From: Odiellus spinosus
Taxonomy: Eukaryota; Arthropoda; Arachnida; Opiliones; Phalangiidae
DNA: 64,000 nucleotides
Assembly (NCBI GenBank): GCA_963920705.1
Contig: OY987231.1
Span: 7,495,424-7,559,423, forward strand
Reading direction: 5' to 3'
Part shown: positions 1,524-64,000 of the stretch, piece after piece
Position numbering within the stretch: position 1 is the first letter of the stretch
Layout of the letters: every line of letters starts with the position of its first letter
Translations under genes and position numbers: made by a program
Notes under the pieces: model-generated
Told to the model about the DNA's origin: nothing
What the model saw: only the letters and a program-made list of their open reading frames with translations
Database searches by the model: none

Positions 1524-1904
1524 AGAGATTGGACATTCAATAAAGTGGAGGTCTATAAATAACTGCCTTTAATTAGAGGCAGTACGGCGTTTGGCAGAAC
1601 GAAGAATGAAATAGTGACTCAAAAACATGTTTTCGCGTAACTAAAAACCAGTTTAGATTAATTAGGAATAACCTGATTCGTAGGCATTCTTTTGACACGC
1701 GGGTGATAATTAAGGTTTACTCTCACTCTCACTTTAAATCGAAGAATAAGGCATTAAAATAGACAGAAATATGATTAGAATTCAACAGCTCTACGTTGAA
1801 AATACGAGAGTCGCGCCTGCTCAATAGGAAATTTGGCTTTTTGAAACCGTTTCGAGTGTTCAAATCGACTCTAAAGATACGTTCACACTAGAGACTTTAG
1901 CTAC

Positions 1905-2735
1905 GGTCACCCTATCATTTCTTAATCGGTTTGAAACGGTAAAATCAAACCGATATTCAACTCGTCAGGAATCGTTTTAAGCCTCACGTGTTCACGCATT
2001 AGCCGCGTTCATACTAGGCCTTGGAATCGATTTAAACCGTTTGAAAACGTTTCTCTGGAGTCGTGTGAACGGGAAACCGTCTTTTATCGAATCGGTTTGA
2101 TTCGATTTCTCGAAACTGCTTCAGGAACCAGTTCCATACCGAATCGGTTTCAACAACCGATAGATGAAGCTACAATAAACCGATTTATAAAGATAATTTG
2201 TGAACGCGTGACGCTTAAAACGATTCCTGACGATTTGAATATCGGTTTGATTTTACCGTAGCTATAATCTTAATAAATCGATTTATCGTAGCTTCATCTA
2301 TCGGTTGTTGAAACCGAATCGGTATGAAACTGGTTCCGAAGCAGTTTCAAAAAATTGAATCAAATCGATTCGAGAAAAGTTTCCAATTCACAGGATTCCA
2401 GCGAAACGTTTTGAACCGATTTCAATAGCTACGGTCACACTAGCATTTCTTAATCGATTCGAAATGGTATAATCAAACCTATATTCAATCGTCAGGAATC
2501 GTTTCAAGCTTCACGTGTTCACACATTACCTTTATAAATCAATTTATTGTAGCTTCATCTATCGGTTGTTGAAACCGAAACGGTAGGAAACTGGTTCCCG
2601 AAGCAGTTTCGAGAAATCGAATCAAATCGATTCGAGAAAAGACTGTTTCCCGTTCACACGACTCTAGCGCAACGTTTTGAAACGGTTTAAAACGATTCCA
2701 AGGCCTAGTATGAACGCAGCTGATTGATTCCAAGG
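1905..2735. mobile_element. Cluster of foldback copies of the TTCACACTAG-type MITE
   Basis: Inverted arms: CAACCGATAGATGAAGCTAC at 2154-2173 pairs with its complement at 2288-2307, and a further partial copy follows at about 2425-2735. Frames at 2539-2733 are part of the repeat. Confidence 0.75.
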
Positions 2736-2739
2736 CCTA

Positions 2740-3015
2740 TGAACGCAGCTTTAGAAACCGTTTTCAAACCATTCTAAATCTTCGTGTCTTTGAAGATAAT
2801 ATTTATATATTTTGAGAAATAATCTTTACAGTTGACCTCAAAATTTTATAATTTGACCTTTATAAAACTGTTTCAAAGTCTCTAGTGCGAGCACGGCTTT
2901 CGAGATATTCTATTTTTTGATAGAATTAGAATTACACGGGTGACCACAAAATTTTATAATTTGACCATTACAACACGGTTCAAAACGGTTTGAACGTATC
3001 TAGTGTGAACGAGGG
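2740..3015. mobile_element. Short GTGTGAAC-ended elements (two overlapping fragments)
   Basis: CGCAGCTTTAGAAACCG... to GTCTCTAGTGCGAGCACGG, then a second right end ATCTAGTGTGAACGAGG. Same layout as 22860-23039. Confidence 0.6.
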
Positions 3016-3375
3016 TTTATTTGAAAAATACAACGTTTCATTATTTAAAGAGATTAGAAACTCCAGTAGAAAAGCCACGATCGAACCCAAGAAACTAAGC
3101 TTACAACGATGTTTATTATCTCCCGCAACAGGCGGTGCGAGCGTGCGATGGCCAAAAATAAATCGCGGAAGAAGAGGCGCGGTTCTAGCCTAGTTAAAAA
3201 TCACTTCGAGAAAAATAGGCACATTTCAGATCATCCACACGTGGTCTTTTAAATTACTTTTCAGTCTCACTCGCGATATATCCTACATCTCTTTTATATT
3301 TTCGACAATATTGTAGTATTTCTAGCAACGAACTGACAACTCAAATAAAATTAAGAAAAAAAAATTCTTAATTTG

Positions 3376-4074
3376 AAGGGAGGCTGTCATGGATTTTTCA
3401 TGAACTTCAAATGAAAATTGTGTAGCATTTTCGGAAAAATCGTTAAAAAACGATTCGAAATATATATAAGCTACGGTCACACTTGCATTTCTTAATCGGT
3501 TTGAAACGGTAAAATCAAAACGATATTAAAATCGCCAGGAATCGTTTTAAGCGTTACGTGTTCACGCGTTATCTTTATAAATCGATTTATTGTAGCTTCA
3601 TCTATCGGTTGTTGAAACCGAATCGGTATGAAACTGGTTCCCGAAGCAGTTTCCAGAAATCGAATCAAATTGATTTGAGAAAAGACGGTTTCCTGTTCAC
3701 ACGACTCTAGCGAAACGTTTTGAAACGGTTTAAATCGATTCCCAGGACTAGTGTGAACGCAGCTCAACATATGTTATAGAAACAATTTCCTCGACAGTAA
3801 AAATACAAATTTTATAATCGCCATTTTCGAAATTTTAAAAATAAAAATCAAATCCAACCTTTCGTATCAAAATTATGGTTAATTACGTTCCAGAAATAAA
3901 CTACGTCATATATCGAAAAAAAAAAAAAAATTATCTATAAATTTTTGAAATTTTCATTTTGAAGTTTCTAAAGAACCCAGAGGTATAAAATTTTAAATAT
4001 GACGTTTTAATAGTATGATAAAACTAAAACTATAATCCATAGGTATTCGAAAAAAATGGTGAGAGCCTCACTTT
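3376..4074. mobile_element. GAGGCTG-family element interrupted by a nested MITE
   Basis: Termini AGGGAGGCTGTCAT and GAGAGCCTCACTTT. The segment 3469-3764 interrupts a TATATATA...ATGTTATAG stretch that is continuous in the copy near 4690, showing a later insertion. Confidence 0.78.
3469..3764. mobile_element. TTCACACTAG-type MITE, ~296 bp, nested
   Basis: Ends AGCTACGGTCACACTTGC and GACTAGTGTGAACGCAGCT form an imperfect TIR. Internal TTGAAACGG/CCGATTT phrases are shared with 1905-2735 and 13660-14010. Confidence 0.78.
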
Positions 4075-4614: not shown

Positions 4615-5036
4615 AAAGTGAGGCTTTCACGAATTTTTCATGAACTCTAAATGGAAATTAAGTTGCATTTTCGGAAAGATCATCAAAAAATGATTCAAAA
4701 TATATATACTTATGTTATAGAACAAATTACAGCAAAAGTAAAATTACATATTTTATAATCGCCATTTTCGAAATTCATAAAATAAGATTTCCCCGCAATA
4801 CTACGTCATCATTACGGTCGTGTGGCTATTCCCGCGTGTTGATTCCCGCGCGTTCTGGCACCAATGATAAGGTCGCTTTCGCGCGGTCTTTTTCGTAAAA
4901 GTACATATCGTATAAACTACGTCATACATCGGGAAAACATTAGCTATATATTATTGAGATTTTTATTTTGAAGTTTCATAAGAACGCGTCAACCCAGAGA
5001 TATAAAATTTTGAATATAGTGTATTAATCAAACACT
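4615..5036. mobile_element. GAGGCTG-family element, 3'-truncated
   Basis: Begins AAAGTGAGGCTTTCACG with the typical TTTTTCATGAACT follow-on. It contains the conserved inner TTTCGCGCGGTC phrase and loses similarity before the heat-shock-element satellite, without a right TIR. Confidence 0.68.
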
Positions 5037-5132
5037 ATTAATTTACAATGTCCGTACGTGTGAACGTTCGTAACTTTTTCCATAATGTTCTAGAAGCCTG
5101 TTATATGTAGGAAAAGTCTACAACAAGCTAGA

Positions 5133-7973
5133 ACATTCTAGAAAATTCCACAACATTCTAGAAAATTCCACAACATTCTAGAAAATTCCACAACATTCTA
5201 GAAAATTCCACAACATTCTAGAAAATTCCACAACATTCTAGAAAATTCCACAACATTCTAGAAAATTCCACAACATTCTAGAAAATTCCACAACATTCTA
5301 GAAAATTCCACAACATTCTAGAAAATTCCACAACATTTCTAGAAAATTCCACAACATTTCTAGAAAATTCCACAACATTTCTAGAAAATTCCACAACATT
5401 TCTAGAAAATTCCACAACATTTCTAGAAAATTCCACAACATTTCTAGAAAATTCCACAACATTTCTAGAAAATTCCACAACATTTCTAGAAAATTCCACA
5501 ACATTTCTAGAAAATTCCACAACATTTCTAGAAAATTCCACAACATTTCTAGAAAATTCCACAACATTTCTAGAAAATTCCACAACATTTCTAGAAAATT
5601 CCACAACATTTCTAGAAAATTCCACAACATTTCTAGAAAATTCCACAACATTTCTAGAAAATTCCACAACATTTCTAGAAAATTCCACAACATTTCTAGA
5701 AAATTCCACAACATTTCTAGAAAATTCCACAACATTTCTAGAAAATTCCACAACATTTCTAGAAAATTCCACAACATTTCTAGAAAATTCCACAACATTT
5801 CTAGAAAATTCCACAACATTTCTAGAAAATTCCACAACATTTCTAGAAAATTCCACAACATTTCTAGAAAATTCCACAACATTTCTAGAAAATTCCACAA
5901 CATTTCTAGAAAATTCCACAACATTTCTAGAAAATTCCACAACATTTCTAGAAAATTCCACAACATTTCTAGAAAATTCCACAACATTTCTAGAAAATTC
6001 CACAACATTTCTAGAAAATTCCACAACATTTCTAGAAAATTCCACAACATTCTAGAAAATTCCACAACATTCTAGAAAATTCCTCAACATTCTAGAAAAT
6101 TCCTCAACATTCTAGAAAATTCCTCAACATTCTAGAAAATTCCACAACATTCTAGAAAATTCCACAACATTCTAGAAAATTCCACAACATTCTAGAAAAT
6201 TCCACAACATTCTAGAAAATTCCACAACATTCTAGAAAATTCCACAACATTCTAGAAAATTCCACAACATTCTAGAAAATTCCACAACATTCTAGAAAAT
6301 TCCACAACATTCTAGAAAATTCCACAACATTCTAGAAAATTCCACAACATTCTAGAAAATTCCACAACATTTCTAGAAAATTCCACAACATTTCTAGAAA
6401 ATTCCACAACATTCTAGAAAATTCCACAACATTCTAGAAAATTCCACAACATTCTAGAAAATTCCACAACATTCTAGAAAATTCCACAACATTCTAGAAA
6501 ATTCCACAACATTTCTAGAAAATTCCACAACATTTCTAGAAAATTCCACAACATTTCTAGAAAATTCCACAACATTTCTAGAAAATTCCACAACATTTCT
6601 AGAAAATTCCACAACATTTCTAGAAAATTCCACAACATTTCTAGAAAATTCCACAACATTTCTAGAAAATTCCACAACATTTCTAGAAAATTCCACAACA
6701 TTTCTAGAAAATTCCACAACATTTCTAGAAAATTCCACAACATTTCTAGAAAATTCCACAACATTTCTAGAAAATTCCACAACATTTCTAGAAAATTCCA
6801 CAACATTTCTAGAAAATTCCACAACATTTCTAGAAAATTCCACAACATTTCTAGAAAATTCCACAACATTTCTAGAAAATTCCACAACATTTCTAGAAAA
6901 TTCCACAACATTTCTAGAAAATTCCACAACATTTCTAGAAAATTCCACAACATTTCTAGAAAATTCCACAACATTTCTAGAAAATTCCACAACATTTCTA
7001 GAAAATTCCACAACATTTCTAGAAAATTCCACAACATTTCTAGAAAATTCCACAACATTTCTAGAAAATTCCACAACATTTCTAGAAAATTCCACAACAT
7101 TTCTAGAAAATTCCACAACATTTCTAGAAAATTCCACAACATTTCTAGAAAATTCCACACATTTCTAGAAAATTCCACACATTTCTAGAAAATTCCACAC
7201 ATTTCTAGAAAATTCCACACATTTCTAGAAAATTCCACACATTTCTAGAAAATTCCACACATTTCTAGAAAATTCCACACATTTCTAGAAAATTCCATCA
7301 CATTTCTAGAAAATTCCATCACATTTCTAGAAAATTCCATCACATTCTAGAAAATTCCATCACATTCTAGAAAATACCGCAACATTCTAGAAAATACCGC
7401 AACATTCTAGAAAATACCGCAACATTCTAGAAAATTCCTCAACATTCTAGAAAATTCCGCAACATTCTAGAAAATTCCGAAACATTCTAGAAAATTCCGA
7501 AACATTCTAGAAAATTCCGCAACATTCTAGAAAATTCCGCAACATTCTAGAAAATTCCGCAACATTCTAGAAAATTCCGCAACATTCTAGAAAATTCCGC
7601 AACATTCTAGAAAATTCCGCAACATTCTAGAAAATTCCGCAACATTCTAGAAAATTCCGCAACATTCTAGAAAATTCCGCAACATTCTAGAAAATTCCGC
7701 AACATTCTAGAAAATTCCGCAACATTCTAGAAAATTCCGCAACATTCTAGAAAATTCCGCAACATTCTAGAAAATTCCGCAACATTCTAGAAAATTCCGC
7801 AACATTCTAGAAAATTCCGCAACATTCTAGAAAATTCCGCAACATTCTAGAAAATTCCGCAACATTCTAGAAAATTCCGCAACATTCTAGAAAATTCCGC
7901 AACATTCTAGAAAATTCCACAACATTCTAGAAAATTCCACAACATTCTAGAAAATTCCACAACATTCTAGAAC
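5133..7973. repeat. Satellite of 20/21-bp units, each with a heat-shock-element match
   Basis: About 138 units of ACATTCTAGAAAATTCCACA (20 bp) or its 21-bp form with an extra T. Read as 5-bp modules the unit is aTTCt-aGAAa-aTTCc-acaac, so each copy has a three-module nTTCnnGAAnnTTCn site; 21-bp copies keep it. Variants are in blocks: 20 bp at both ends and about 6041-6500, 21 bp at about 5331-6040 and 6510-7145, a shortened CACA form at 7150-7300, and CCGCAAC units after about 7370. Long minus-strand open frames here are by-products. Confidence 0.95.
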
Positions 7974-8748
7974 ATTCAAAAAAGATCGTTTAAAAAATGC
8001 TTTTCTTTTCATGAACTTTCAGTTTTAAAATCTGTTTGCTAGCAGTATGATAAAACTAAAAATGTAATCCATGGGTATTCGAAATGGTTTCAGTTTGGAG
8101 GAAGGAAACCCCTTTCCTTCCGCCAAGGTTTCAGTCTCAGTTTAACCACGAGCATCCTGATATATTGTCAAAGATAAATAAATAATTATCAATACAAAAA
8201 TACGTCAAGATATACACCAGTTCTGAATCGTTTCGAACCTCAATCAACAAGTTGTCTATATAAAAACGAACCTGAACCGTTCAGAACTGACGAATCCCTT
8301 AAATTTTAGAGGCTTAAAAATACATTTAAAATTTGCGAATACGGCATTGGCTATAAAAACAAACTTGGAAATTAAAGTTCTCTAAGACGGGGTACCAAAA
8401 ATTATTCAAAATAAACAGGTTTTTCTTCGGCAAAGACGTAAAACCGTTAGAAGATAAGGCATCCAGCTGCGCGCTTAGATTTTAGACTTTAAAGAGTATT
8501 TTTGCATCCACGGATCTATAGTTGACATTTATTTAGGACACTCGTAAAAATTTGGGGAAGAAAAAAAAACCTTCCCCAACTGTTCTAAGTACATAAGAGT
8601 ATAGAACAGGGATCATAAAACAGTATGGAAATGGAGCATTTACGTTCGAAACGTAAGAAAAATACTAAGTATCGTAAATTTTAAAAGTTAAACAAGATAA
8701 TGATGGTAATTACGAGAAAATATTTCCTGCAATATACAATAATTTACT

Positions 8749-11440: not shown

Positions 11441-12592
11441 GTTTGTTTGAGATACCCTTACCCCTTTAGGCTGCTCCAGCTCTAATTGTTAAAAGCAATA
11501 TACAAATCTTAGCTAACTAAACATTCAGGTTTTTGACGACTGGGCGATATTTTTTGATTCAAAAATGACTATTAAAGTCTCAAAATTATAGGATTTTATA
11601 TGACATTTCAAGGAAATACAGGATAATATAGGACATGTTGGAAAATACAGGATAATATAGGACATGTTGGAAAATACAGGATAATATAGGACATGTTGGA
11701 AAATACAGGATAATATAGGACATGTTGGAAAATACAGGATAATATAGGACATGTTGGAAAATACAGGATAATATAGGACATGTTGGAAAATACAGGATAA
11801 TATAGGACATGTTGGAAAATACAGGATAATATAGGACATGTTGGAAAATACAGGATAATATAGGACATGTTGGAAAATACAGGATAATATAGGACATGTT
11901 GGAAAATACAGGATAATATAGGACATGTTGGAAAATACAGGATAATATAGGACATGTTGGAAAATACAGGATAATATAGGACATGTTGGAAAATACAGGA
12001 TAATATAGGACATGTTGGAAAATACAGGATAATATAGGACATGTTGGAAAATACAGGATAATATAGGACATGTTGGAAAATACAGGATAATATAGGACAT
12101 GTTGGAAAATACAGGATAATATAGGACATGTTGGAAAATACAGGATAATATAGGACATGTTGGAAAATACAGGATAATATAGGACATGTTGGAAAATACA
12201 GGATAATATAGGACATGTTGGAAAATACAGGATAATATAGGACATGTTGGAAAATACAGGATAATATAGGACATGTTGGAAAATACAGGATAATATAGGA
12301 CATGTTGGAAAATACAGGATAATATAGGACATGTTGGAAAATATAGGATTTAATAGGAATTATAGGACCACTGGGCTCCCTGTAATAATTTTATTTTCCA
12401 TTTATACGACATAGCCTAGCCACGACTCAGTATTCATTTAGATATTTAATTAGCTCGCAATCGTTAAGGGCTTGTTTGAGCTCCCCCACCCCTTTAGGTA
12501 GCTCCGGCTCTAATTGTGAGAAGCAATATACAAATCTAGCTAATAGGGCCTTGCTTTACGTGAAACATTCAATTTTTCGACGGAGGGGCGAT
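11441..12592. repeat. Direct repeat of about 110 bp flanking the 29-bp array
   Basis: The segment at 11441-11552 (CCCTTTAGG, CTCTAATTGT, AGCAATATACAAATCT, CATTCA, GGGCGAT) recurs at about 12473-12592 in the same orientation with small insertions, roughly 1.03 kb away. Confidence 0.75.
11613..12341. repeat. 29-bp minisatellite, about 25 near-identical copies
   Basis: Unit TACAGGATAATATAGGACA plus TGTTGGAAAA. Nearly perfect homogeneity indicates recent expansion. Flanks (11200-11610, 12342-12370) contain degenerate single versions of the same TATAGGA phrase, so the array grew inside an older sequence. Overlapping minus-strand frames are artefacts. Confidence 0.95.
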
Positions 12593-14888: not shown

Positions 14889-14993
14889 ATGGCGTCCGAA
14901 GAACGAATAACTGTCAAATTATTGGGCGGTAGTCCTTGGGGATTTCGTTTAACTGGTGGAGCGGGTACTGGACAACCTCTAATCGTTAACAAG
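14889..14993 (+). CDS. SYNPO2L: SYNPO2L-like exon 1 (start codon, first half of PDZ)
   Basis: Encodes residues 1-35. It has the beta-A strand (ITVKLLGG) and the PWGFRL ligand loop typical of the SYNPO2/Zasp PDZ subgroup. It ends in AAG with donor GTAACT, phase 0. The GC-rich codons contrast with the AT-rich flanks. Confidence 0.9.
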
Positions 14994-17900
14994 GTAACTA
15001 AATTACTATATTTTTATTTAACTATATTTATATACCATAGGGGTTCTAGTTCAATTATATCTTCTTGTTTTTGGATAAATGCCCGCTGATATAGGGTCTT
15101 TTAGATTTGGATAATAGATTACAGTAGCCAAATTTGTTAACATTTACTAATTTATATATAAATGTTAAACCTAGGAAAGAGAAATTGTGCCAATGTAAGC
15201 GTATTTTAGTTAATTCAGTTTTTTTATTTTTTTATTTTTGTAAAAGATGGTGAGAGAGACTTTTAGGAGACATTACTTTTTATAATGAAGATTTAATTCA
15301 CCCTATAACTCGAAAGATGATTTCGTAATCTCACGAAGAATTGGGTTAATGCTTAATTTAGAATACCGCAAATTCCAGGGTTTAATTTGAAATAACATTT
15401 TTACGAATATATTTTGAATATGATCTCGAAAACAGTTTTAAGTTAATTATTTATGATAGAAATAGGCTTAACTTATTAGTTATAACCATAACTTTATTTA
15501 GAAACTCACGAAAATGCCAATTTATTTCTAAATAAAGGTTAAATTAAATATAATTTATTTTTGTATATTTATTTTCTGTAATTGAAAATTAATATATATT
15601 CTATTCGTAGAATTTTCTATTCACTAAAAAATTTTTTATTGAAAAATAATTAAAAATGTTTTTAGTGAAACTTTATTCATTGGAAAGAAATTCATTAGAA
15701 ATTCCTTTACTGGAATTTTTTTCATTCTAAATTTATTGATTGAAAATTAATTTATTCGTTGGAAATTAATTTATTCATTGGAAATTTTAGTGATTGGAAA
15801 TTTATTGATTGGAAACTAATTTATTCATTGGAAATTAATTTATTCATTGGAAATTAATATATTCATTGGAAATTAATTTATTCATTGGAAATTAATTTAT
15901 TCATTGGAAATTAATTTATTCATTGGAAATTAATTTATTCATTGGAAATTAATTTATTCATTGGAAATTAATTTATTCATTGGAAATTAATTTATTCATT
16001 GGAAATTAATTTATTCATTGGAAATTAATTTATTCATTGAAAATTAATTTATTCATTGGAAATTATTTATTGATTGGAAACTATTTATTGATTGGAAACT
16101 ATTTAGTCACTGGAAATTAATTTATTCATTGGAAATTTATTGAATGGAAACTATTCATTGGAAATTTTATTGATTGGTAATTATTTTAGTGTAATTTTAT
16201 GGAAATTTTATTCATTGGATATTAGTTTATGGAAATTTCATTCATAAGAAATTAATTTATGGAAAATGAAATGAAATTTTATTCATAAGAAATTAATTTA
16301 TGGTCATTAATTTATTGAAATTTTATTCATTGGAAATTTTATTCGTTGGAAATTAATTTATTCAAATATTATTTGTTGGAGATTAATTTATAGAATTTTA
16401 ATCATTGGAAATTAATTTATTCAAATTTTGTTCGTTGGAGATTAATTTATAGTAATTTTATTTTTTCAAATTAGAAAATATTTATTTATATTTGATTTGA
16501 TTTAATATATAAAATATTTGTGCAACTGGTTATCAGCTGTAAGCTGCAATACATTAATCATGTCCCTTTTGGTTTCTAAGCGAATAAATGCAATGCTTTT
16601 ATATTACGCACCACCAAAGTCTTCTATAAAAAAATATTTAGAAGTTTACAAAAAGCCGGAGCATGAATGGATTTTTCTATATGACCCAATTAGGAATGTA
16701 ATATAATCCTCATGAAATTAAATCCATAGACCTGGTAATTCAAGGTCCGATCGAGTAAGACAAAGAACTCCATTATTTAAATAATCAATTTTTTAAATTT
16801 AAATGTAAAATAAAAAATCAAATTCAATAACTGCCTTGTCAAATTTCATTAAGGTTTATTTATCTAGAGATCGGAATCGGATATCCATTATCTTCTGTTA
16901 TTCGTATATTTTCAGATATTTTATTTTCGGATATATTTAAATGTAACTAAAAAATGAAATTTGTATATTCGTATAATTGTTTAATGTATAAGGTTTACCC
17001 GAAGATAAGCATTGGCGCTTTATCTACGAACAAATTACTCGTATTGAAACGTATAACGATGGATAAGAAAATTCACGTTCCCTGAATTAGTTTAAAATAT
17101 AAGAAAAGTATTTCAAATTTACTTTTAAATTGAAGAATATAAATAAAACCACGAAACTAAGATTTTAAATCATCTTTTTATTCATTATTTTTTCGAAAAT
17201 AAATTTTGTAATTTTTTATCCGAACGTATAACACGGATAATATTGTAAGATAAGGCCATTTTCGGATAAAAACGGATTGTTTTTTACTGTATCTTCGAAT
17301 AGGTTAACTCGAATGAAAAATAGTCTATTTTTAATCAAACAGATAATATACAACAGAATTTAGTAGATTTTTATCCAATTAATAAAAATTATACGAATAC
17401 CGAGCTCTATATTTATCTTTATCGAGATTAATTTAATTGGAAACAGACAAACTCTTATTTAAAGTGAGGCTGTTATGAATTTTTCATGAATTTCAAATGG
17501 AAATTGAGTACGATTTTGAAAATATTCAAATATGAGAAATTAATGCGATAGTAAAAACGCATTTTATAATCGCCATTTTTGAAATTTTTCAAATAAAAAA
17601 TCCCTGAATTATTACGTCATCGCATTATGGTCGCGTGATTGATTGTCGCTTTCGCTCTGTCTTTTTCGTAAAAGTACTTAATCAAGAAAGTTCAACCTTT
17701 CGTAAGACAATTATCTTTAATTACGTTCCAGAAATAAACTAAAGTCATATATCAGATAAACAATGACCTGTATATTTTTAAAATTTTCATTTTGAAGGTT
17801 CTTTCGAGCGCGTCAACCGACAGAGATTTAAAATTTTGAATTTAGTGATAATCTCACTTTGAATTTTTTTTTGAAACTCGAAAAATATTTCAAATAATGT

Positions 17901-20900
17901 TTATAAAGCCGCGTTCACACTAGAAACTTTGAAACCGTTTTAACCATTTCGGAAAGGTCAAAATGGAACATATTAGGGTCAACTGTATAGCTTCTTTGTC
18001 AAAACAAATTGTTATTTGCTTGAAAAGTCGATTTGAACGGATTCTAAATGGTTTGAAAACCGTTTCAAAGTGTCTATAGTGTGAACGTAGCTTTAGTGTC
18101 AAAAATTGTATCGTTCGGTTCGTCTTTTTCAACACCCATTCCTCGCCGCTCGCCTTGGAAATAAACCATATGTTCTTTAAATTAAACATTGCCTTCGGCC
18201 TTCGCTACAAAGTTACTCTTAAAGGAATAATGAAGACGAGGGTGTCGGACAAATAAAAAAATTAAATTTTATTTTAAAATATCGAAAATGGCGATTATAA
18301 AATATGTATTTTTACTGCAGCGATAATTTTGTTCTATGACATAAGTATATATATTTTGAATCATCTTTTAACGATCTTTCCGAAAATAATACTTAATTTC
18401 CATTTGGAGTTCATGAAAAATCCGTGACAGCCTAACTTTAACAGAAAATTAATTAGTCGTCTTCGTTTAGAGATCGGGGTTTGGACAAAATAATCCACAA
18501 CTATCAGTTAATCAGTTAATCATAAAAAATAATCGGAAAATTATTCGCGATTACATTGGATTTATCATAGACTTTCCTCGAAAAATTTTAAGTTATGAAT
18601 AAAGATAAAATAATCAGAAATTTTCTTGTCCAAACCCCGATCTCTATCTTCGTTATACCTTTAACCCTTTGAATTTTAAAAATAGTTGAAGAATTTATTC
18701 TTAAGGGAATAACGGCGCGAGTGTTTAATTTTTTATTATTTATTTTTTATTTATTTTTATTTTTTTTGGTTTCGAGGTCGAAGAAACCAGATTTGATACA
18801 TTTCAGAAACGAATTCCTCTGGTATATTTCAGTGTTGTTCCAAAGACTTTTCATCATTTTCACGGTGAAAATGTTTAAAATGAAGGGGGTACTTAATGCC
18901 AGGCTTAAGAACAACATATTTAACTGATCTACAACTTCTGTATTTCGCTTGATCTTTGTTTTCTATCCATATCATTATTCCATAAAAATAAACAACGCCC
19001 TATAGCTTAATACTATCAGCAAAAATCCAGTTTTTCGTCATACCCCATCACTTACAAATAGCCAAAAAAGTCATCACCCCTGTCTGACTCGAGTGATTTG
19101 GACTCTTCCACGATATTTTGAGTCGGGAGAGAGAGGGATGGAATTTAGGCGGCCCGCGCTTGGCTATATTGTCTCCCCCAACTCCTGAATTTCTCCAAAG
19201 AGTGGCGCTTCCTCCGTTCAATATTTACTGCGTCTGCGCCCGCTAGAGTGTCTCGAATCAGAATCTGCCGGTACATTTACCAGAACCTTTGCTGACAGTA
19301 TGAAGCTTATGGGTGTTGTTTACTTTTATGGAATAAAATGATAGACTTTTGTATATGTCATAAAAAAATTAAGACAAAAAAAAAAATAAGCGAAATTTTT
19401 ACGAAATTTCTACTCAAATTCCATATAGTTTTCAACACTCTCCGTATATAGCTATCTTTCTATTGTCTGCTAAGTGTTTTTATTCTTTAACTACATTAGC
19501 ACTAGGCATATAGTTCCATTTTAATATACCATTCTTAATATTGACGTAATAGAAACACGTGGTTCGAATTATATTTATTTATTTATTTGTTACTATAGTT
19601 AAAACATTCAATTTTAAGTTTGTAATAAATGTTTTCGTTACAGATTCGACGCAAAAGCAAAGCTCAACATCAGTTGAAAGAAGGCGATTTCGTACTTGGT
19701 ATTAACGGGGTCAAATGTCAAACTTTGACATACGATGATGCCATGAATGTTGTCGATGAAGCCGCTGATTGTTTAATCATTGAAATACTCAGGTAATTTT
19801 TAAAACGATAATTATAAAGATTTGGAAATAATTAAGTGAGGCTGTTACCATTTGGTCGAATGCCCTATATTGAAATTAAAAAGGCATATTCAAAATTTTA
19901 TAACTCTGGGTTGACGCGTTCTTAAGACATTTTAAAATGAAAAGGTCAAAAATATAAAGATCTTTTTCATTTTATTTCTGGAACGTAATTATGGATAATT
20001 TTCAGAAGTAAGGTAGTTGACTTTCTGGATTAAGTATTTTTATGAAAAAGACTGCGCGAAAGCAACCTTAACTCGTCCCAGAATCAACTGTAGGCTCTAC
20101 AATAGTCACGTCCATAGGTTGATGACGTATAGTATTGTGGTAAATTTTTATTTTAAACATTTCGAAAATGGCGATTATGAAATAAGTACTTTTACTATTG
20201 CAGTAATTTGTTCTATGTCATACCAGAAGCCGATGAAACCCTCCTTTGAAGTCTATTACTTCCGGGTCTTGTATACCCCTCTCTTTATGGGTTAGTTTCA
20301 AAAAGCGTGATTCGTACGCCTCCTAACGGTAAGTATTTTCGGAGCGGGAGTTCGTCGAGCGAATATCTCTAGCAGCCTTGGAGTTCGTCAAAAAAGCGTC
20401 GTCGTTTGCGGAGAGAGAGAATTTTCAATTTTCCGTAGACAGGGGGTATGAAGTAGGACCCCCTCCGATCTCGTAAAATTGTGAATTTTACCCATACAGA
20501 GAGGAGCGCTATATGAAACAGAGTAGTAGACTTCGAAGGAGGGTTTCATCGGCTTCTGGTCATACATATATACATTTTTAATCTTTTCGAAAATTGTACT
20601 CAATTTCCATTTGGAGTTCATGAAAAATCCGTGACAGCCTCACTTTAATTTAATTAAACTTGAGAAATTTAGTTTAAATTGATACTTAAACGCTTCAACA
20701 TTATTTTGAACGTTGTACAGGCTAGGAAATATAGAAAATCATTTCTCTTAAGCATAAAATGTGAAATTTTTAAGTTTCATCATTATTTGATATTAAACTT
20801 CACGACCAATCAAGGCGTATTGAAAATTCAGACGCTAAAAGAGAAAAATCTCGTGTGGCGTGGTAATTAAGTCTTCGATTAATAACTCACACATCAAGAG

Positions 20901-23900: not shown

Positions 23901-26900
23901 AAGTTAATTTCCCTGACTTTTTACCAGGTTTTCCCTGACCATTTCCAAATAATTTAACTGACCAATTTTATCTTTTTCCATGAATTTACTCTTATTAAGC
24001 GAGCTCTTGGAAATTCCCACATTATTTGACATAGTTTATCAGTCAGGGTCGATACTCAAAATATGAGAAAACATTTAATTACGTTACAATTAACTGATCA
24101 ACCAACCAACAGTTCCTTGACACGTACCAAAATATTTGACTTGATAATTAAAATATAGTTTAATTGTCAAGTCGCTCTATGAATTATATTTTATTAGTCA
24201 AGTCGTTCTATGAAATATATTTTAATAGTCAAGTCGTTCTATGACGTATATTTTAATTGTCGAGTCGCTCTATGAAATATATTTTAATTGAGCGACTTGA
24301 AAAATAAAATATATTTTAATTGAGCGACTTGAAAAATAAAATATATTTTAATTGAGCGACTTGAAAATTATAATATATTTAATAGAGCGACTTGAAAATT
24401 AAAATATATTTAATAGAGCGACTTGAAAATTAAAATATATTTAATAGAGCGACTTGAAAATTAAAATATATTTAATAGAGCGACTTGAAAATTAAAATAT
24501 ATTTAATAGAGCGACTTGAAAATTAAAATATATTTAATAGAGCGACTTGAAAATTAAAATATATTTAATAGAGCGACTTGACAATTAAAATATATTTAAT
24601 AGTGACCTGACTATTAAAATATACTTAATAGAGTGACCTGACTATTAAAATATACTTAATAGAGTGACCTGACTATTAAAATATACTTAATAGAGTGACT
24701 TGACAATTAAAATATATTTCATAGAGCGATTTGGCATTTAAAAATATATTTACTAGAGCGACTTGACAATTTAAATATACCGGTTACTATAAATTCTGAA
24801 CTTTTTACCTTGGCCATAGTCTCTAAATATTTTACAACTGTTATTTTGTTTTATTTTTTTTATTTTTTTATTTTTTTTTTTTTTTTTTTTGCAAAATAGG
24901 TCGATTTAGTGAACAAACTATAGTTTTAGGGGTTTGTTAATGACCCAAGAATAAATAGTGACTTTTAGCGTGAAAATAGTAAACGAGCTGGTGCCACTAC
25001 TCTACGCGAAAACTCAATAAAAAAGTGTTTATAAGCTTGATCTCTAAGAGGCAGGGTTCGTACTAAATTTTGAAAGTTAATTTCCCCGACTTTTCCAGGT
25101 AACCATGACCATTTATAATTAATTTCCCTGGCATGAATTTATTCTTCCGAGCGAGCTCTTCATAATTCCCACTTTTTATTTGACATAATTTATCAATCAG
25201 GAGTCAGGATAATTTACTCAGAATAAGAGAAAAAATTGAATCTTTAGGCAAATATTTTCAATTAAAAATAATTACGTTACAATTAATTGGTCAACTAAAT
25301 CATAAACAGACCATTCTAGCTCATGTCCATGACTTTTTCCTGACCTTATGGTCCAACTTTCGAATTCCCTGACCTTTTGGGCCAACTTTCGAATTCCCTG
25401 ACCTTTTGGGCCAACTTTCGAATTCCCTGACCTTTTGGGCCAACTTTCGAATTCCCTGACCTTTTGGGCCAACTTTCGAATTCCCTGACCTTTTGGGCCA
25501 ACTTTCGAATTCCCTGACCTTTTGGGCCAACTTTCGAATTCCCTGACCTTTTGGGCCAACTTTCGAATTCCCTGACCTTTTGGGTCAACTTTCGAATTCC
25601 CTGACCTTTTGGGTCAACTTTCGAATTCCCTGACATTTTGGGTCAACTTTCGAATTCCCTGACCTTTGGGGTCAACTTTCGAATTCCCTGACCTTTGGGG
25701 TCAACTTTCGAATTCCCTGACCTTTGGGGTCAACTTTCGAATTCCCTGACTTTTCCATGACCTTTGGGGCCAACTTTCGAATTCTATGACTTTTCCCTGG
25801 CCTATTTGGGCCAATTTCCAAATTCCATGATTTGTCAGGTTTCCCAGGTAGAGCAAGAACCAACCAGTATGGGTTAAGAAAGTAGGGGGAAAAACCTGAC
25901 ATCTGGAAACTAAATCCCAGCATTATCTGTTTTCATAAATTAATTCTTGTCGTAATTTCGATATAATGGCCCGGAAGTTAGGGTAGCTTGCATTTAGTGT
26001 TGATAAAATACGTTTTAAAAGCATTCGTAGTATATGGCGATATTTTTTTAAATAAAAAGCAAGAGAGTAAAAAAACGTTAGGTTTCAAATAATTTTTCAA
26101 GTCTGAGATGTTGTCGCGTCACGTAGCTATAGGGGGGCTTGGCTTACTCGATGCTCTAGTCGGCACATTGTTTTAGAAAAATCAAATAGACCTAGGATCT
26201 AGCTAGCGGGGCCTATATATCTTTTTTTGGCAAGCGACACCATCCTCATCTCGTGCAGTGTCGGAATTCGACGGGACAAGTGCCAAAATGGAAGATGGTG
26301 GTTATGCCGTGAGTCTCCAAACTCTTAAATTAAAAACAAACTCACTTTTTCTACAAGTTCTACCGCTATAAGATTATGTCTCGTCTAAGCGGGGAGATGT
26401 TAAGACTTCTAGATAAAAGTATAATGAAAATTTTTCGTCTCGGGCGCCCTCTTGGGAACATTGCGCGAGCGAGGAAACTCAAAATCAAGGTGAAAGTCGT
26501 ACAACGAAGCGTTCTATACCGGGTTGGTAACCGGCGCGATCATAGTTGGAACAAAAAGTATATAAGAAAAAGCCTTAAAAGAAACATCAAAGTCATCAAT
26601 CCCAAATGGATGTAAAATACGTCACCGTCAATGTGTCGCGATCAATGGACAAACCCGTACTCCTTGCTGCCACGGATTTTTTCTCTCAAAGAGTTTGTTG
26701 AGGAAAGTATCGACCTCATGGGTGGACCTGGACCAATGGCCCACGCCATGGCGACCCTCAGGAGGGCTTGGGCCCGCGTTTCAGTGGTACCTTTAATGTG
26801 CGGGGTCCTGGCGATAGTTCTCTTTTCGGCACTTGTCTTTTCAACGATACGAAATTTTCGAAAATTGAAAAAAACGAAAGAAGAGAAAGCCAAAAGGTAT

Positions 26901-46929: not shown

Positions 46930-47874
46930 ACTTATGTAGACGACAAATCGATTTAAATTCGATAATTTGGTGCCAAGGGTCTCTATTTTGGCTGACGACA
47001 AATCTAGCTGCATTACGAAACACACCGTGACTAGGTTTTACATTTATAACCCCGCCCCACCCCCAAATCAAATCTAAATTAGGCTTAATTAGCCTAATCT
47101 ACCATTACATAGTCCGCGTGTTTTTTTCTGACTGGATAAATTATACCCTTAGCGTGTTTATTTTCTGTTCAAAATACCATAGGTGTAATTAGGATTAGCG
47201 AATTAAATATAATGCCAATTAAACTTAAGATATTATTTTCAAATTCCAACAGGATACCCAATCCCAAGTATTATAACGCTATATTAAAGTATATCATTTA
47301 AGTTTATTCGTCGCGTTTTTTGCGTGATTCTTATTTCTATCGCGTTTGATACCCGATTAATTAAAGTTTCTTAATTATATTAATCGTTAATTTCTTCGTA
47401 AGTTTCTTATATAAAAGTAAACGGCCCGAAAACGTTACGCAGCTATAATTAAAAGTTTAAAACCATAGTCATAAACAATGGAACTCGACGTATACCCGAG
47501 GGAATCTTGGGCCCTTGGCAATTTGTTATATAAACATTTGTTAAAAAATCCCTATGTTCCTAACCTCTCAATTAGAATTTGTTTCTTTGCTAAATTAGAT
47601 TTCAAAGATGTTTTTTTTTTTTTCTTACAAAAAGGAGTGTGTCCGATTCAGTTTAATTTTAATGTATAAGATTATCATTTGATCTCTTTCTATCTCTTCT
47701 CTTATTTTTCATGTAGTCTTAGGTCCGATTACTGATTCAATAAATTCATTTGCTTGGGAAAATTTCACACGCTTTTTTTATATTGTCATATGCTGCTTTG
47801 TTTCTAACTCCTTATTAGTTTGTCTAAATCTAATAACAGGACCTCGAGCCGTTCATGCAAAATTTGAAATAGGA

Positions 47875-48915
47875 TTATATGGGGCATTTTCTACGAAGTT
47901 ATAGGATTGTATAGGACATTTTTTTACGACATTATAGGATTATATAGGGCCTTTTTTACGAAATTATAGGATTGTATAGGACATTTTCTGCGAAATTATA
48001 ATATTATATAGGGCATTTTCCGCGAAATTATAGGATTACATAGGGCATCTTTTACGAAATTATAGGATTATATAGGGCATGTTTTATGAAATTATAGAGC
48101 ATTTTCTACGAAATTACATGATTGTATAGGACATTTTCTACGAAATTATAATATGTAGGGCATTTTCTGCGAAATTATAGGATTACATAGGGCTTTTTTT
48201 TACGAAATTATAGGATATAGGGCATTTTTTTACGAAATTATAGGATATAGGGCGTTTTTTACGAAATTATAGGATTACATAGGGCATTTTTTACGAAATT
48301 ATAGTATTACATAGGGCATTTTTTACGAAATTATTTAATTATACAGGGCATTTCCTACGAAATTATAGGATTGTATAGGACATTTTCTACGAAATTATAA
48401 TATTATACAAGGCATTTTCTGCGAAATTATAGGATTATATAGGGCAGTTTCTGCGAAATTATAGGATTACATAGGGCTTTTTTTTACGAAATTATAGGAT
48501 ATAGGGCATTTTTTACGAAATTATAGGATTACATAGGGCATATTTTACGAAATTATAGGATTACATAGGGCATATTTTACGAAATCATAGGATTACATAG
48601 GGCATTTTTTACGAAATTATAGGATTATATAGGGCATTTCCTACGAAATTATAGGATTGTATAGGACATTTTCTACGAAATTATAATATTATACAAGGCA
48701 TTTTCTGCGAAATTATAGGATTATATAGGGCATTTTCTGCGAAATTATAGGATTATATAGGGCAGTTTCTGCGAAATTATAGGATTACATAGATAATTTT
48801 CTACGAAATTACAGGATTGTATAGGACATTTTCTACGAATTTGTAGGATTGTAGTTTCTACGAATTTGTAGGATTGTAGTTTCTACGAAATTATAGTATT
48901 ATATAGGTCATTTTG
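47875..48915. repeat. Degenerate ~32-bp minisatellite (TATAGGGCATTTTCTACGAA)
   Basis: About 30 imperfect units also containing ATTATAGGATTA, with small internal duplications and many single-base changes, so older than the 29-bp array at 11.6 kb. Its flanks share the TATAGGA phrase with that locus. Confidence 0.9.
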
Positions 48916-49705: not shown

Positions 49706-49988
49706 CTATTCTGTGTGCATAACAGAAGATAATTTTAAAGATCCAAATTTCAAAGCTGATAGGGCCTTTAATTCTTCTGGTTGAAATAATCACCATTCCC
49801 TCCCAGACTTCAACTGTTGCCACGTGGTCAATCCTCAAACATTGAAAATGTATATTCAGTATTCACTATAATACTTGTGTTTACCTATTCGATAAGCTGC
49901 ACTTATAAGCTATAGCCTACGTGTAAATTTCAAAGTCGCAGTAAAATCCACTCAAATTGGCTTAGAAAACAAACGATAGGGGTATCAA

Positions 49989-51693
49989 AATCTCCTCAAA
50001 AGGCGCCTCAAACATCCTCTCAAAAGCCGATTCAAAAATCCTCTCAAAAGGCGCCTCAAAAATCCTCTCAAAAGACGCCTCAAAAATTTTCTCAAAAGGC
50101 ACCTCAAAAATCCTCTCAAAAGGCACCTCAAAAATCCTCTCAAAAGGCACCGCAAAAATCCTCTCAAAAGGCACCGCAAAAATCCTCTCAAAAGGCACCG
50201 CAAAAATCCTCTCAAATCGCGCCTCAAAAATCCTCTCAAAAGGCGCCTCAAAAATCTTCTCAAAAGGCGCCTCAAAAATCTTCTCAAAAGGCGCCTCAAA
50301 AATCTTCTCAAAAGGCGCCTCAAAAATCTTCTCAAAAGGCGCCTCAAAAATCTTCTCAAAAGGCGCCTCAAAAATCTTCTCAAAAGGCGCCTCAAAAATC
50401 TTCTCAAAAGGCGCCTCAAAAATCTTCTCAAAAGGCGCCTCAAAAATCTTCTCAAAAGGCGCCTCAAAAATCTTCTCAAAAGGCGCCTCAAAAATCTTCT
50501 CAAAAGGCGCCTCAAAAATCTTCTCAAAAGGCGCCTCAAAAATCTCAAAAGGCGCCTCAAAAATCTTCTCAAAAGGCGCCTCAAAAATCTTCTCAAAAGG
50601 CGCCTCAAAAATCTTCTCAAAAGGCGCCTCAAAAATCTTCTCAAAAGGCGCCTCAAAAATCTTCTCAAAAGGCGCCTCAAAAATCTTCTCAAAAGGCGCC
50701 TCAAAAATCTTCTCAAAAGGCGCCTCAAAAATCTTCTCAAAAGGCGCCTCAAAAATCTTCTCAAAAGGCGCCTCAAAAATCTTCTCAAAAGGCGCCTCAA
50801 AAATCTTCTCAAAAGGCGCCTCAAAAATCTTCTCAAAAGGCGCCTCAAAAATCTTCTCAAAGGGCGCCTCAAAAATCTTCTCAAAAGGCGCCTCAAAAAT
50901 CCTCTCAAAAGGCGCCTCAAAAATCCTCTCAAAAGAGGCCTCGAAATCCTCTCAAAAGAGGCCTCGAAATCCTCTCAAAAGAGGCCTCGAAATCCTCTCA
51001 AAAGAGGCCTCGAAATCCTCTCAAAAGAGGCCTCGAAATCCTCTCAAAAGAGGTTTCGAAATCCTCTCAAAAGAGGCCTCGAAATCCTCTCAAAAGAGGC
51101 CTCGAAATTCTCTCAAAAGAGGCCTCGAAATTCTCTCAAAAGAGGCCTCGAAATTCTCTCAAAAGAGGCCTCGAAATTCTCTCAAAAGAGGCCTCGAAAT
51201 TCTCTCAAAAGAGGCCTCGAAATTCTCTCAAAAGAGGCCTCGAAATTCTCTCAAAAGAGGCCTCGAAATTCTCTCAAAAGAGGCCTCGAAATTCTCTCAA
51301 AAGAGGCCTCGAAATTCTCTCAAAAGAGGCCTCGAAATTCTCTCAAAAGAGGCCTCGAAATTCTCTCAAAAGAGGCCTCGAAATTCTCTCAAAAGAGGCC
51401 TCGAAATTCTCTCAAAAGAGGCCTCGAAATTCTCTCAAAAGAGGCCTCGAAATTCTCTCAAAAGAGGCCTCGAAATTCTCTCAAAAGAGGCCTCGAAATT
51501 CTCTCAAAAGAGGCCTCGAAATTCTCTCAAAAGAGGCCTCAAAATACTATAAAAGGGGCCTCAAAATACTATAAAAGGGGCCTCAAAATACTATAAAAGG
51601 GGCCTCAAAATACTATAAAAGGGGCCTCAAAATACTATAAAAGGGGCCTCAAAATACTATAAAAGGGGCCTCAAAATACTATAAAGGGGCCTC
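49989..51693. repeat. Three-zone minisatellite with 24-, 23- and 22-bp units
   Basis: Zone 1 (to about 50934): TCTCAAAAGGCGCCTCAAAA plus ATCT, 24 bp. Zone 2 (to about 51540): CTCTCAAAAGAGGCCTCGAA plus ATT/ATC, 23 bp. Zone 3: CTATAAAAGGGGCCTCAAAA plus TA, 22 bp. Each has a GC palindrome core. Zone 1 is open on both strands because 24 is a multiple of 3; zones 2-3 break the frame, so no protein is proposed. Confidence 0.94.
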
Positions 51694-59930: not shown

Positions 59931-63695
<3,765 letters not shown>

Positions 63696-63764
63696 CTGAA
63701 GAAATAATAAGAAACAATCTTTCAATTTAAAATTTGAAGAGATGAAAGTTCCTGATAATGAGTG

Positions 63765-64000
63765 GTTTTCTTAGGCTTAGTTTTTGACAGACAAATACTT
63801 AGCTTTTTGACAAGCAATGGCTTAGCTTTTTGACAGACAAAGGCTTAGCTTTTTGACAGACAAAGGCTTAGCTTTTTGACAGACAAAGGCTTAGCTTTTT
63901 GACAGCCAAAGGCTTAGCTTTTTGACAGCCAAAGGCTTAGCTTTTTGACAGCCAAAGGCTTAGCTTTTTGACAGTCAAAGGCTTAGCTTTTTGACAGTCA
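63765..64000. repeat. Intronic 23-bp minisatellite, inverted orientation, runs off the window
   Basis: About ten units of GGCTTAGCTTTTTGACAGAC plus AAA, the reverse complement of the CTAAGCC units in the two downstream introns. Located upstream of the first visible HERC4-like exon. Confidence 0.9.

Follow-up and report, generated by a model that had tools for sequence, protein, structure and literature searches.

Helitrons are defined by their ends: they start with TC and finish with a short 3' hairpin followed by CTRR. Some have internal tandem repeats, as in the DINE-1 elements of Drosophila. In Caenorhabditis, Helitrons also carry heat-shock elements (HSEs). The parts of Garrigues et al. 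(2019, eLife, PMC6927752) covered here report that 61.4% of C. elegans HSEs are within Helitrons, and that eight HelitronY4_CE copies, with more than 100 HSEs, are bound by HSF-1. They also describe enrichment only in Caenorhabditis, with no high-density clusters in other animals scanned, and suggest that the phenomenon may be restricted to the genus. Note that their scan used a different pattern from ours, and covered only genomes with annotated Helitrons. Here, we describe a dense array of HSEs in a 64,000-nucleotide stretch of DNA (hereafter the window; C7:7495424-7559423 of a 443-Mb assembly). We consider it quite likely that the array arose by expansion inside a non-autonomous Helitron copy, and that its heat-shock modules serve activation of the element by heat-shock factor (HSF).

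As described for Caenorhabditis, in those parts of PMC6927752, the HSE clusters are dense, exceed 100 HSEs in some copies, and are dispersed through the genome. Conversely, the host is probably from another phylum (an arthropod), the units are near-uniform at 20-21 bp, and the likeness is one of HSE content. HSF-1 binding was shown for the Caenorhabditis elements (in the same parts), whereas here HSF sites are predicted. Among the titles and opening lines of abstracts listed by our literature searches, none describes HSE-bearing Helitrons outside Caenorhabditis. The array Helitron is a new instance of such elements, probably in another phylum. Two further systems are related. In the Pacific oyster, satellite arrays lie inside Helitrons (PMC8268682, in part); there, too, tandem repeats are located mid-element and spread by the element. 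Unlike here, oyster monomers labelled Helitron are at least 134 bp in the table rows covered, and those parts mention no factor-binding motif. In ONSEN/COPIA elements of Brassicaceae, HSF sites were gained repeatedly, those of ONSEN via duplication of a proto-site (PMC5059998, in part). The likeness is that HSF sites are in the transposon's own control region. The difference is that ONSEN/COPIA elements are plant LTR retrotransposons with shown heat activation (same parts of PMC5059998). Finally, most C. elegans HSEs tested bind HSF-1 DNA-binding domains cooperatively (PMC9148306, in part). By analogy, cooperative binding would suit arrays of the kind described below.

The array occupies the following interval of the window.

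5132..7977, plus strand: heat-shock-element minisatellite, approximately 138 units, each 20-21 bp, and 136 TTCnnGAAnnTTC sites

Tandem Repeats Finder reports 138.9 copies of the unit, with 99% matches. A first-pass annotation had placed about 138 units at 5133-7973, with a canonical alternating HSE trimer in each unit type and homogenisation in local blocks of variants. All of this was borne out. Cutting at TCTAGAA produced 139 pieces: 69 each of 20 bp and 21 bp, plus one truncated at the end. Nine full unit types are present, arranged as homogeneous blocks, such as runs of 34, 31, and 20. The unit reads ATTCT-AGAAA-ATTCC-ACAAC, where the first three parts are alternating heat-shock modules. 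Hence, if a HSE is at least three alternating nGAAn/nTTCn modules, 136 are packed into 2,846 bp. The other 61 kb of the window has eight three-module sites (five TTCnnGAAnnTTC and three GAAnnTTCnnGAA), and one more straddles the left array edge. Module spacing is strict and of the heat-shock kind: TTCN2GAA occurs 139 times and TTCN1GAA twice, while TTCN3GAA and TTCN4GAA are absent. STAT-type sites, which have the TTCN3GAA form, are ruled out as array content. The TTC-GAA-TTC positions, initially described as fixed, are so in nearly all units; the exceptions are three in which the second TTC is TAC. The fourth module is AGAAC, a sound heat-shock module, at the array edges and ACAAC within units. 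Because of this difference, amplification probably started from a site of four modules, one of which had been broken. The array is also ruled out as coding sequence, since long open frames across it are repeat translations. Structured RNAs, sought in the window with Rfam, gave no match at the gathering threshold, and no tRNA was found there. Tandem Repeats Finder also detected many further minisatellites in the window (main units, 19-32 bp), at 11614-12349, 15730-16141, 24151-24779, 25339-25830, 47869-48850, 49987-51676, 60462-60670, and 63773-63997.

The array is enclosed by Helitron sequences. These, and a second copy of the repeat into which the element inserted, are as follows.

5028..8042, plus strand: Helitron copy, from 5' terminus match, alignment of 3' body and CTAG, and paralogous empty site
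5028..5074, plus strand: Helitron 5' terminus (TCAAACACTATTAATTTACAATGTCCGTACG...CGTAAC), aligned with 31 other copies
5075..5131, plus strand: degenerate remnant (TTTTTCCATAATGTTCTAGAAG...) of the 5' block of heat-shock elements, from alignment to the first block of the family
7978..8034, plus strand: Helitron 3' body (contains ATGCTTTTCTTTTCATGAACTTTCAGTTTTAAAATCT), from local alignment to other copies
8035..8042, plus strand: Helitron 3' end TTTGCTAG, from local alignment across end and flank
3974..4049, plus strand: paralogous host-repeat copy without Helitron, empty site between A4010 and T4011

The copy extends 3,015 bp, from T5028 of the 5' TC to the G of CTAG, and 2,846 bp of this is array. 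It begins TCAAAC, at 5028, as expected for a Helitron. The family 5' terminus is matched exactly at 5027-5050 (C7:7500450-7500473), and the 5'-end profile matches 5020-5149 (E 3e-22). A viral relative of this terminus was sought in viral_contigs, a set that may omit records from this genome or very close ones, and 0 exact matches were obtained. At the other end, 7966-8033 aligned locally to the 3' bodies of copies L039, L040, L035, and L013, with scores of 63, 55, 41, and 39. The equivalent maxima for shuffled sequences were 36, 32, 33, and 32 (100 shuffles each). The 3' end plus flank aligned to copy L042 with a score of 50 (shuffled maximum 34), and a CTAG at 8039-8042 was recovered by local alignment.

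Helitrons insert between A and T, with no target-site duplication, and this is what we observe. The second host-repeat copy crosses A4010 and T4011 without the insert and so is a paralogous empty site. Flanks of the filled site are identical to it at 31 of 37 bp on the left and 35 of 39 bp on the right (counted by hand on alignments); longer gapped alignments have 62-70% identity. In loci L042 and L044, a copy of the Helitron occupies the equivalent site of this host repeat, and the right flank of L042 matches as well. Therefore, to judge from their sequences, the window, L042, and L044 copies may descend from one insertion. The host repeat, with junction GTTTTAA/TAGTATGATAAAACTAAAA, is present several times: at 3974-4049 and at 4908-5027 plus 8043-8090 in the window, and in L042, L044, and L046.

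Together, the Helitron termini and the empty site rule out a free-standing satellite, which is what the first-pass annotation had taken the array to be. The same annotation drew a parallel with human satellite III. This is described, in the parts of PMC9032817 covered, as a pericentric satellite, and the likeness is that of a tandem repeat tied to HSEs and HSF1. Because the array is the interior of a transposon, the parallel is weak. The HSE-bearing Helitrons of Caenorhabditis are a fitting one. In size and setting the locus also differs from a large pericentric satellite, being 2.8 kb inside a transposon copy, with other arrays dispersed over contigs. One could still imagine a HSF sink, or a source of stress-induced non-coding RNA, of the satellite III kind. 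The 136 sites in 2.8 kb could take many trimers, and the genome has further such arrays. However, these arrays measure approximately 0.2-2.8 kb and are scattered over many contigs, and the one in the window is an inserted transposon copy rather than a chromosomal satellite. From the sequence, we regard such a role as very improbable.

Arrays elsewhere in the genome, which the first-pass annotation had proposed looking for, are plentiful. A 63-base array query had 147 matches, many in arrays on other contigs that combine the same kind of modules with other linkers. The six-module pattern, three repeats of TTCnnGAA, is found at 471 genome sites and the mirror pattern at 0. Note that the pattern is its own reverse complement, so both strands give the same 471, and that the excess alone only shows amplification and says nothing on function. 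The boundary of the family was found using the common flanks of dispersed six-module sites, and then alignment. A sharp left boundary, TCAAACACTATTAATTTACAATGTCCGTACG...GTAAC followed by heat-shock modules, is present in 32 copies from 31 sources (including the window), and an A precedes the 5' end in most aligned copies (by eye). The 31 aligned sources have a common plan. The 5' TC terminus comes first, and a block of GAA/TTC modules starts approximately 50 bp inside. Where a 3' end was found, it consists of the hairpin and CTAG, intact or as a relic. In ten copies aligned at the 3' end, the hairpin (CCCGTGA-TTTT-TCACGGG in the best) is followed by TTTTTG and then CTAG. The module block has, in some copies, grown to arrays of up to 2.8 kb, and module runs in relatives reach 46 modules (L015). 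Allowing up to 3 mismatches, the 5' terminus occurs at 413 genome places (mirrored control, 1) and the hairpin with CTAG at 199 (control, 0). Some of these ends, among the matches listed, form pairs that delimit short elements, such as C3:13989397-13989549 and C2:15711072-15711540.

We then consider how often HSE clusters coincide with the Helitron. The sample was all 29 six-module clusters among the matches listed (C1 to C3:10.7 Mb). As in Caenorhabditis, the clusters are concentrated in Helitrons: the 5' terminus is present in 24 of the 29, and in each of these the nearest six-module run is on the inner side, at a distance of 29-1090 bp. The count becomes 27 if weak 3'-end profile hits in L041 (2.1e-5) and L054 (7.9e-4), and a degenerate 5' end in L045 (by eye), are added. 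The remaining clusters are L049, which belongs to a second repeat family, and L051, assigned to neither family. We also inspected 19 loci picked by BLAST (L009-L027), of which L011 is also among the 29 clusters. The 5' terminus is present in seven: L010, L011, L013, L019, L021, L022, and L024. There is no six-module run in L010 or L021, and in L022 the nearest is on the outer side. Matches to the Helitron 3' end were found in L015, L017, and L020. Locus L009 contains, at 1883-3961, three different 20-21 bp arrays close together; the last is heat-shock-like, and no Helitron end was found. With respect to a possible autonomous partner, Helitron_like_N has at least 150 genome matches, many within long open frames. 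HSP70 genes were located in the genome, and the HSF DNA-binding domain has one genome match, with a stop inside the matched stretch.

The second family with HSE arrays comprises L014, L016 (1639-5300), L018, L023, L025, L026, and L049, where L026 is a near-duplicate of L025. A non-array module of L016 (approximately 1639-3025) is common to L018 (1,390 bp, 94.3%), L025 (1,372 bp, 96.6%), and L049 (1,364 bp, 97.5%). The stretch common to L016 and L023 is longer (99.6%), while L014 shares pieces of 422 bp (93.8%) and 149 bp (94.6%) with L016. The flanks of L014 are inverted copies of each other, with 94% identity over approximately 520 bp. Neither Helitron end was matched in the flanks of L014, L016, L018, L023, L025, or L049. 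Array periodicity is 10 or 20 bp. In a scripted scan of L014, L016, L018, L023, and L025, nine of ten array edges had TATAAAAG; the tenth, in L014, was CATAAAAAG. Five of the nine also have ATGGCATC 59-61 bp further out (one edge each of L016, L023, and L025, and two of L018). The ATG opens a frame of 129 codons in L016 and L023, 71 codons in L049, and short frames in the others. Heat-shock promoters combine HSEs, a TATA box, and a start codon at such distances, and this is the layout seen at the five edges. On the far side, L016 encodes a DDE_Tnp_4 domain (PF13359, E 1.1e-12), with like frames in L023 and L025, but its place in the second-family element is not established, as these three loci are nearly identical. 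In L018, the shared module also has a match to a SWIM-type finger, which at E 0.0094 is below the Pfam cut-off.

We infer that the modules are real HSEs, letting HSF activate the Helitron or an autonomous relative, because they are just behind the Helitron 5' end and because an unrelated family has like arrays with TATA boxes at the edges. The heat-shock role of the array modules is likely but unproven. Logically, if HSF uses the modules, their core should change less than the linker. The first-pass annotation had proposed this check, and the outcome divides by base. For A/T bases, in 20 arrays, 2.9% of core cells differ from the array consensus, compared to 8.4% in the linker, and the core value is lower in 17 of the 20 (Wilcoxon 1e-4). 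This set consists of the BLAST-picked arrays and the window, with L022 221-1226 (an unrelated array) and the near-duplicate L026 dropped. In 13 pattern-picked arrays, which were selected for intact modules, A/T changes are 6.0% in the core and 13.8% in the linker (lower in 9 of 13), and C/G changes are 8.3% and 15.8%. Across a wider set of 34 arrays, core change is lower in 29. Note that this set includes the pattern-picked loci and L022 221-1226, where core change is higher; the test split by picking method and base class, without L022 221-1226, is more reliable (L026 was left out of both). Note also that the units of one array do not count as independent, and that a steadier core could result from exchange between 10-bp sub-units, with no selection involved.

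Several observations weigh against our interpretation. Some concern conservation. At C/G bases of the same 20 arrays, the core differs at 10.8% and the linker at 12.6%. The first block inside the 5' end has an identity of 89.9% for the core and 84.6% for the linker, and the plain terminus has 90.0%; this is for 15 copies, since 17 of the 32 were dropped, their picking pattern lying inside the tested block. Evidence for selection on core bases is therefore mixed: it is supported at A/T bases, but the C and G needed by HSF give no clear support. Other points concern the Helitron. The family hairpin (CCCGTGA-TTTT-TCACGGG) was not found in the window copy, either by the 3' profile or by a second search, which matched only HSE-like stretches of the tail. 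The base after the CTAG is C instead of T. Lacking the hairpin, the window copy is probably immobile. Only four of the ten copies aligned at the 3' end have an exact CTAG, the others being decayed there. All sampled copies were chosen by heat-shock modules or array likeness, so the statement that copies carry modules applies to these, rather than to the 413 ends as a whole. Among BLAST-picked arrays, L009, L012, and L027 show ends of neither repeat family. No autonomous element could be tied to the family termini, and an autonomous donor of Rep/helicase is putative. For the second family, four of the nine TATA edges do not have ATG at the place in question: one in L014, which has GTGGCATC there, and the far edges of L016, L023, and L025. 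The scripted scan gave no TATA edge for L049. Furthermore, L016, L023, and L025 are copies with 96-99% identity, and hence not independent. Lastly, HSF binding and heat-driven expression are predicted from motif content and position.

One alternative is a neutral explanation. Here, the array would be a passenger, a Helitron-internal minisatellite in which a 10-bp palindromic sub-repeat reads as alternating GAA/TTC by chance. Slippage and exchange between 10-bp sub-units would keep the core while linkers drift, and HSF would have no role. The near-equal change of core and linker C/G bases in the 20 arrays fits, as does conservation of the plain terminus to the same degree as the core. In addition, the unit that was amplified in the window apparently had lost its fourth module to a change, and other 19-32 bp minisatellites are common in the window. 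Chance does not readily explain why an unrelated repeat family also has arrays of this motif, bordered by TATA boxes. Strict 2-bp spacing between modules, absence of the mirrored 10-bp palindrome from the genome, and clearly steadier A/T core bases (17 of the 20 arrays, and 9 of the 13 picked by pattern) also argue against it. We consider the neutral explanation unlikely, though the strongest rival to activation by HSF.

If the modules do serve activation, the following course of events can be proposed. The sampled copies of the Helitron family have heat-shock modules just inside the 5' end, swollen to long arrays in some. HSF would bind and activate the elements, favouring copies with many modules, and unequal exchange or rolling-circle replication would lengthen the module block. 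In the window, the array would have grown from a unit with the fourth module already broken (AGAAC to ACAAC), and the copy would stay as a dense cluster of factor-binding sites.

The window copy might also have affected a gene. Two features downstream are relevant.

14889..15089, plus strand: probable first coding exon of a PDZ-domain gene (MASEERITVKLLGGSPWGFRLTGG...), open frame with ATG assigned by eye, 6.8 kb from the element
19629..19796, plus strand: second half of a PDZ domain (PF00595, E 2.6e-5)

The exon at 14889..15089 alone gave no Pfam hit. The first-pass annotation had put the array upstream of a muscle-type scaffold gene. The PDZ half-domain, and a probable start at 14889 judged by eye, support a PDZ-domain gene downstream, and muscle-specific identity was not confirmed. 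By analogy with reported Helitron insertions in C. elegans (PMC6927752, in part), which set a precedent, insertion may have made the PDZ gene heat-responsive. The probable first coding exon, which is on the plus strand, follows the element at 6.8 kb, an arrangement that would allow this; however, the distance is long, and we regard the effect as rather improbable. At 61821-63770 of the window, on the minus strand, open frames resemble a HECT-type ubiquitin ligase gene (by eye). Elsewhere in the genome, six TTAGG in a row gave 7014 matches on one strand and 2583 on the other. A long run is near the end of contig C1 and, among the matches listed, TTAGG repeats are also at many internal places of this contig. 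Telomeres of TTAGG are characteristic of arthropods, and on this basis we take the host to be an arthropod.

Our analysis corrects the reading of the array, which is a transposon interior in place of a host satellite. Mobile elements have spread heat-shock motifs in this genome, and the probable reason is that HSF drives the elements. A bolder proposal is that at least two unrelated mobile-element families, the Helitron and the TATA-flanked repeat beside SWIM-like and DDE_Tnp_4 frames, independently built HSE arrays as promoters. Much of the mobilome would then be heat-inducible, and the elements would be the main source of strong HSEs. We offer this tentatively, as a possibility that is worth serious thought. 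If true, gain of HSE promoters by the two families would be convergent with Caenorhabditis and plant COPIA elements. A second occurrence of HSE-bearing Helitrons, probably in another phylum, together with a second repeat type that has the layout of heat-shock promoters, suggests recurrent capture of heat-shock factor by animal mobile elements, as in Brassicaceae.
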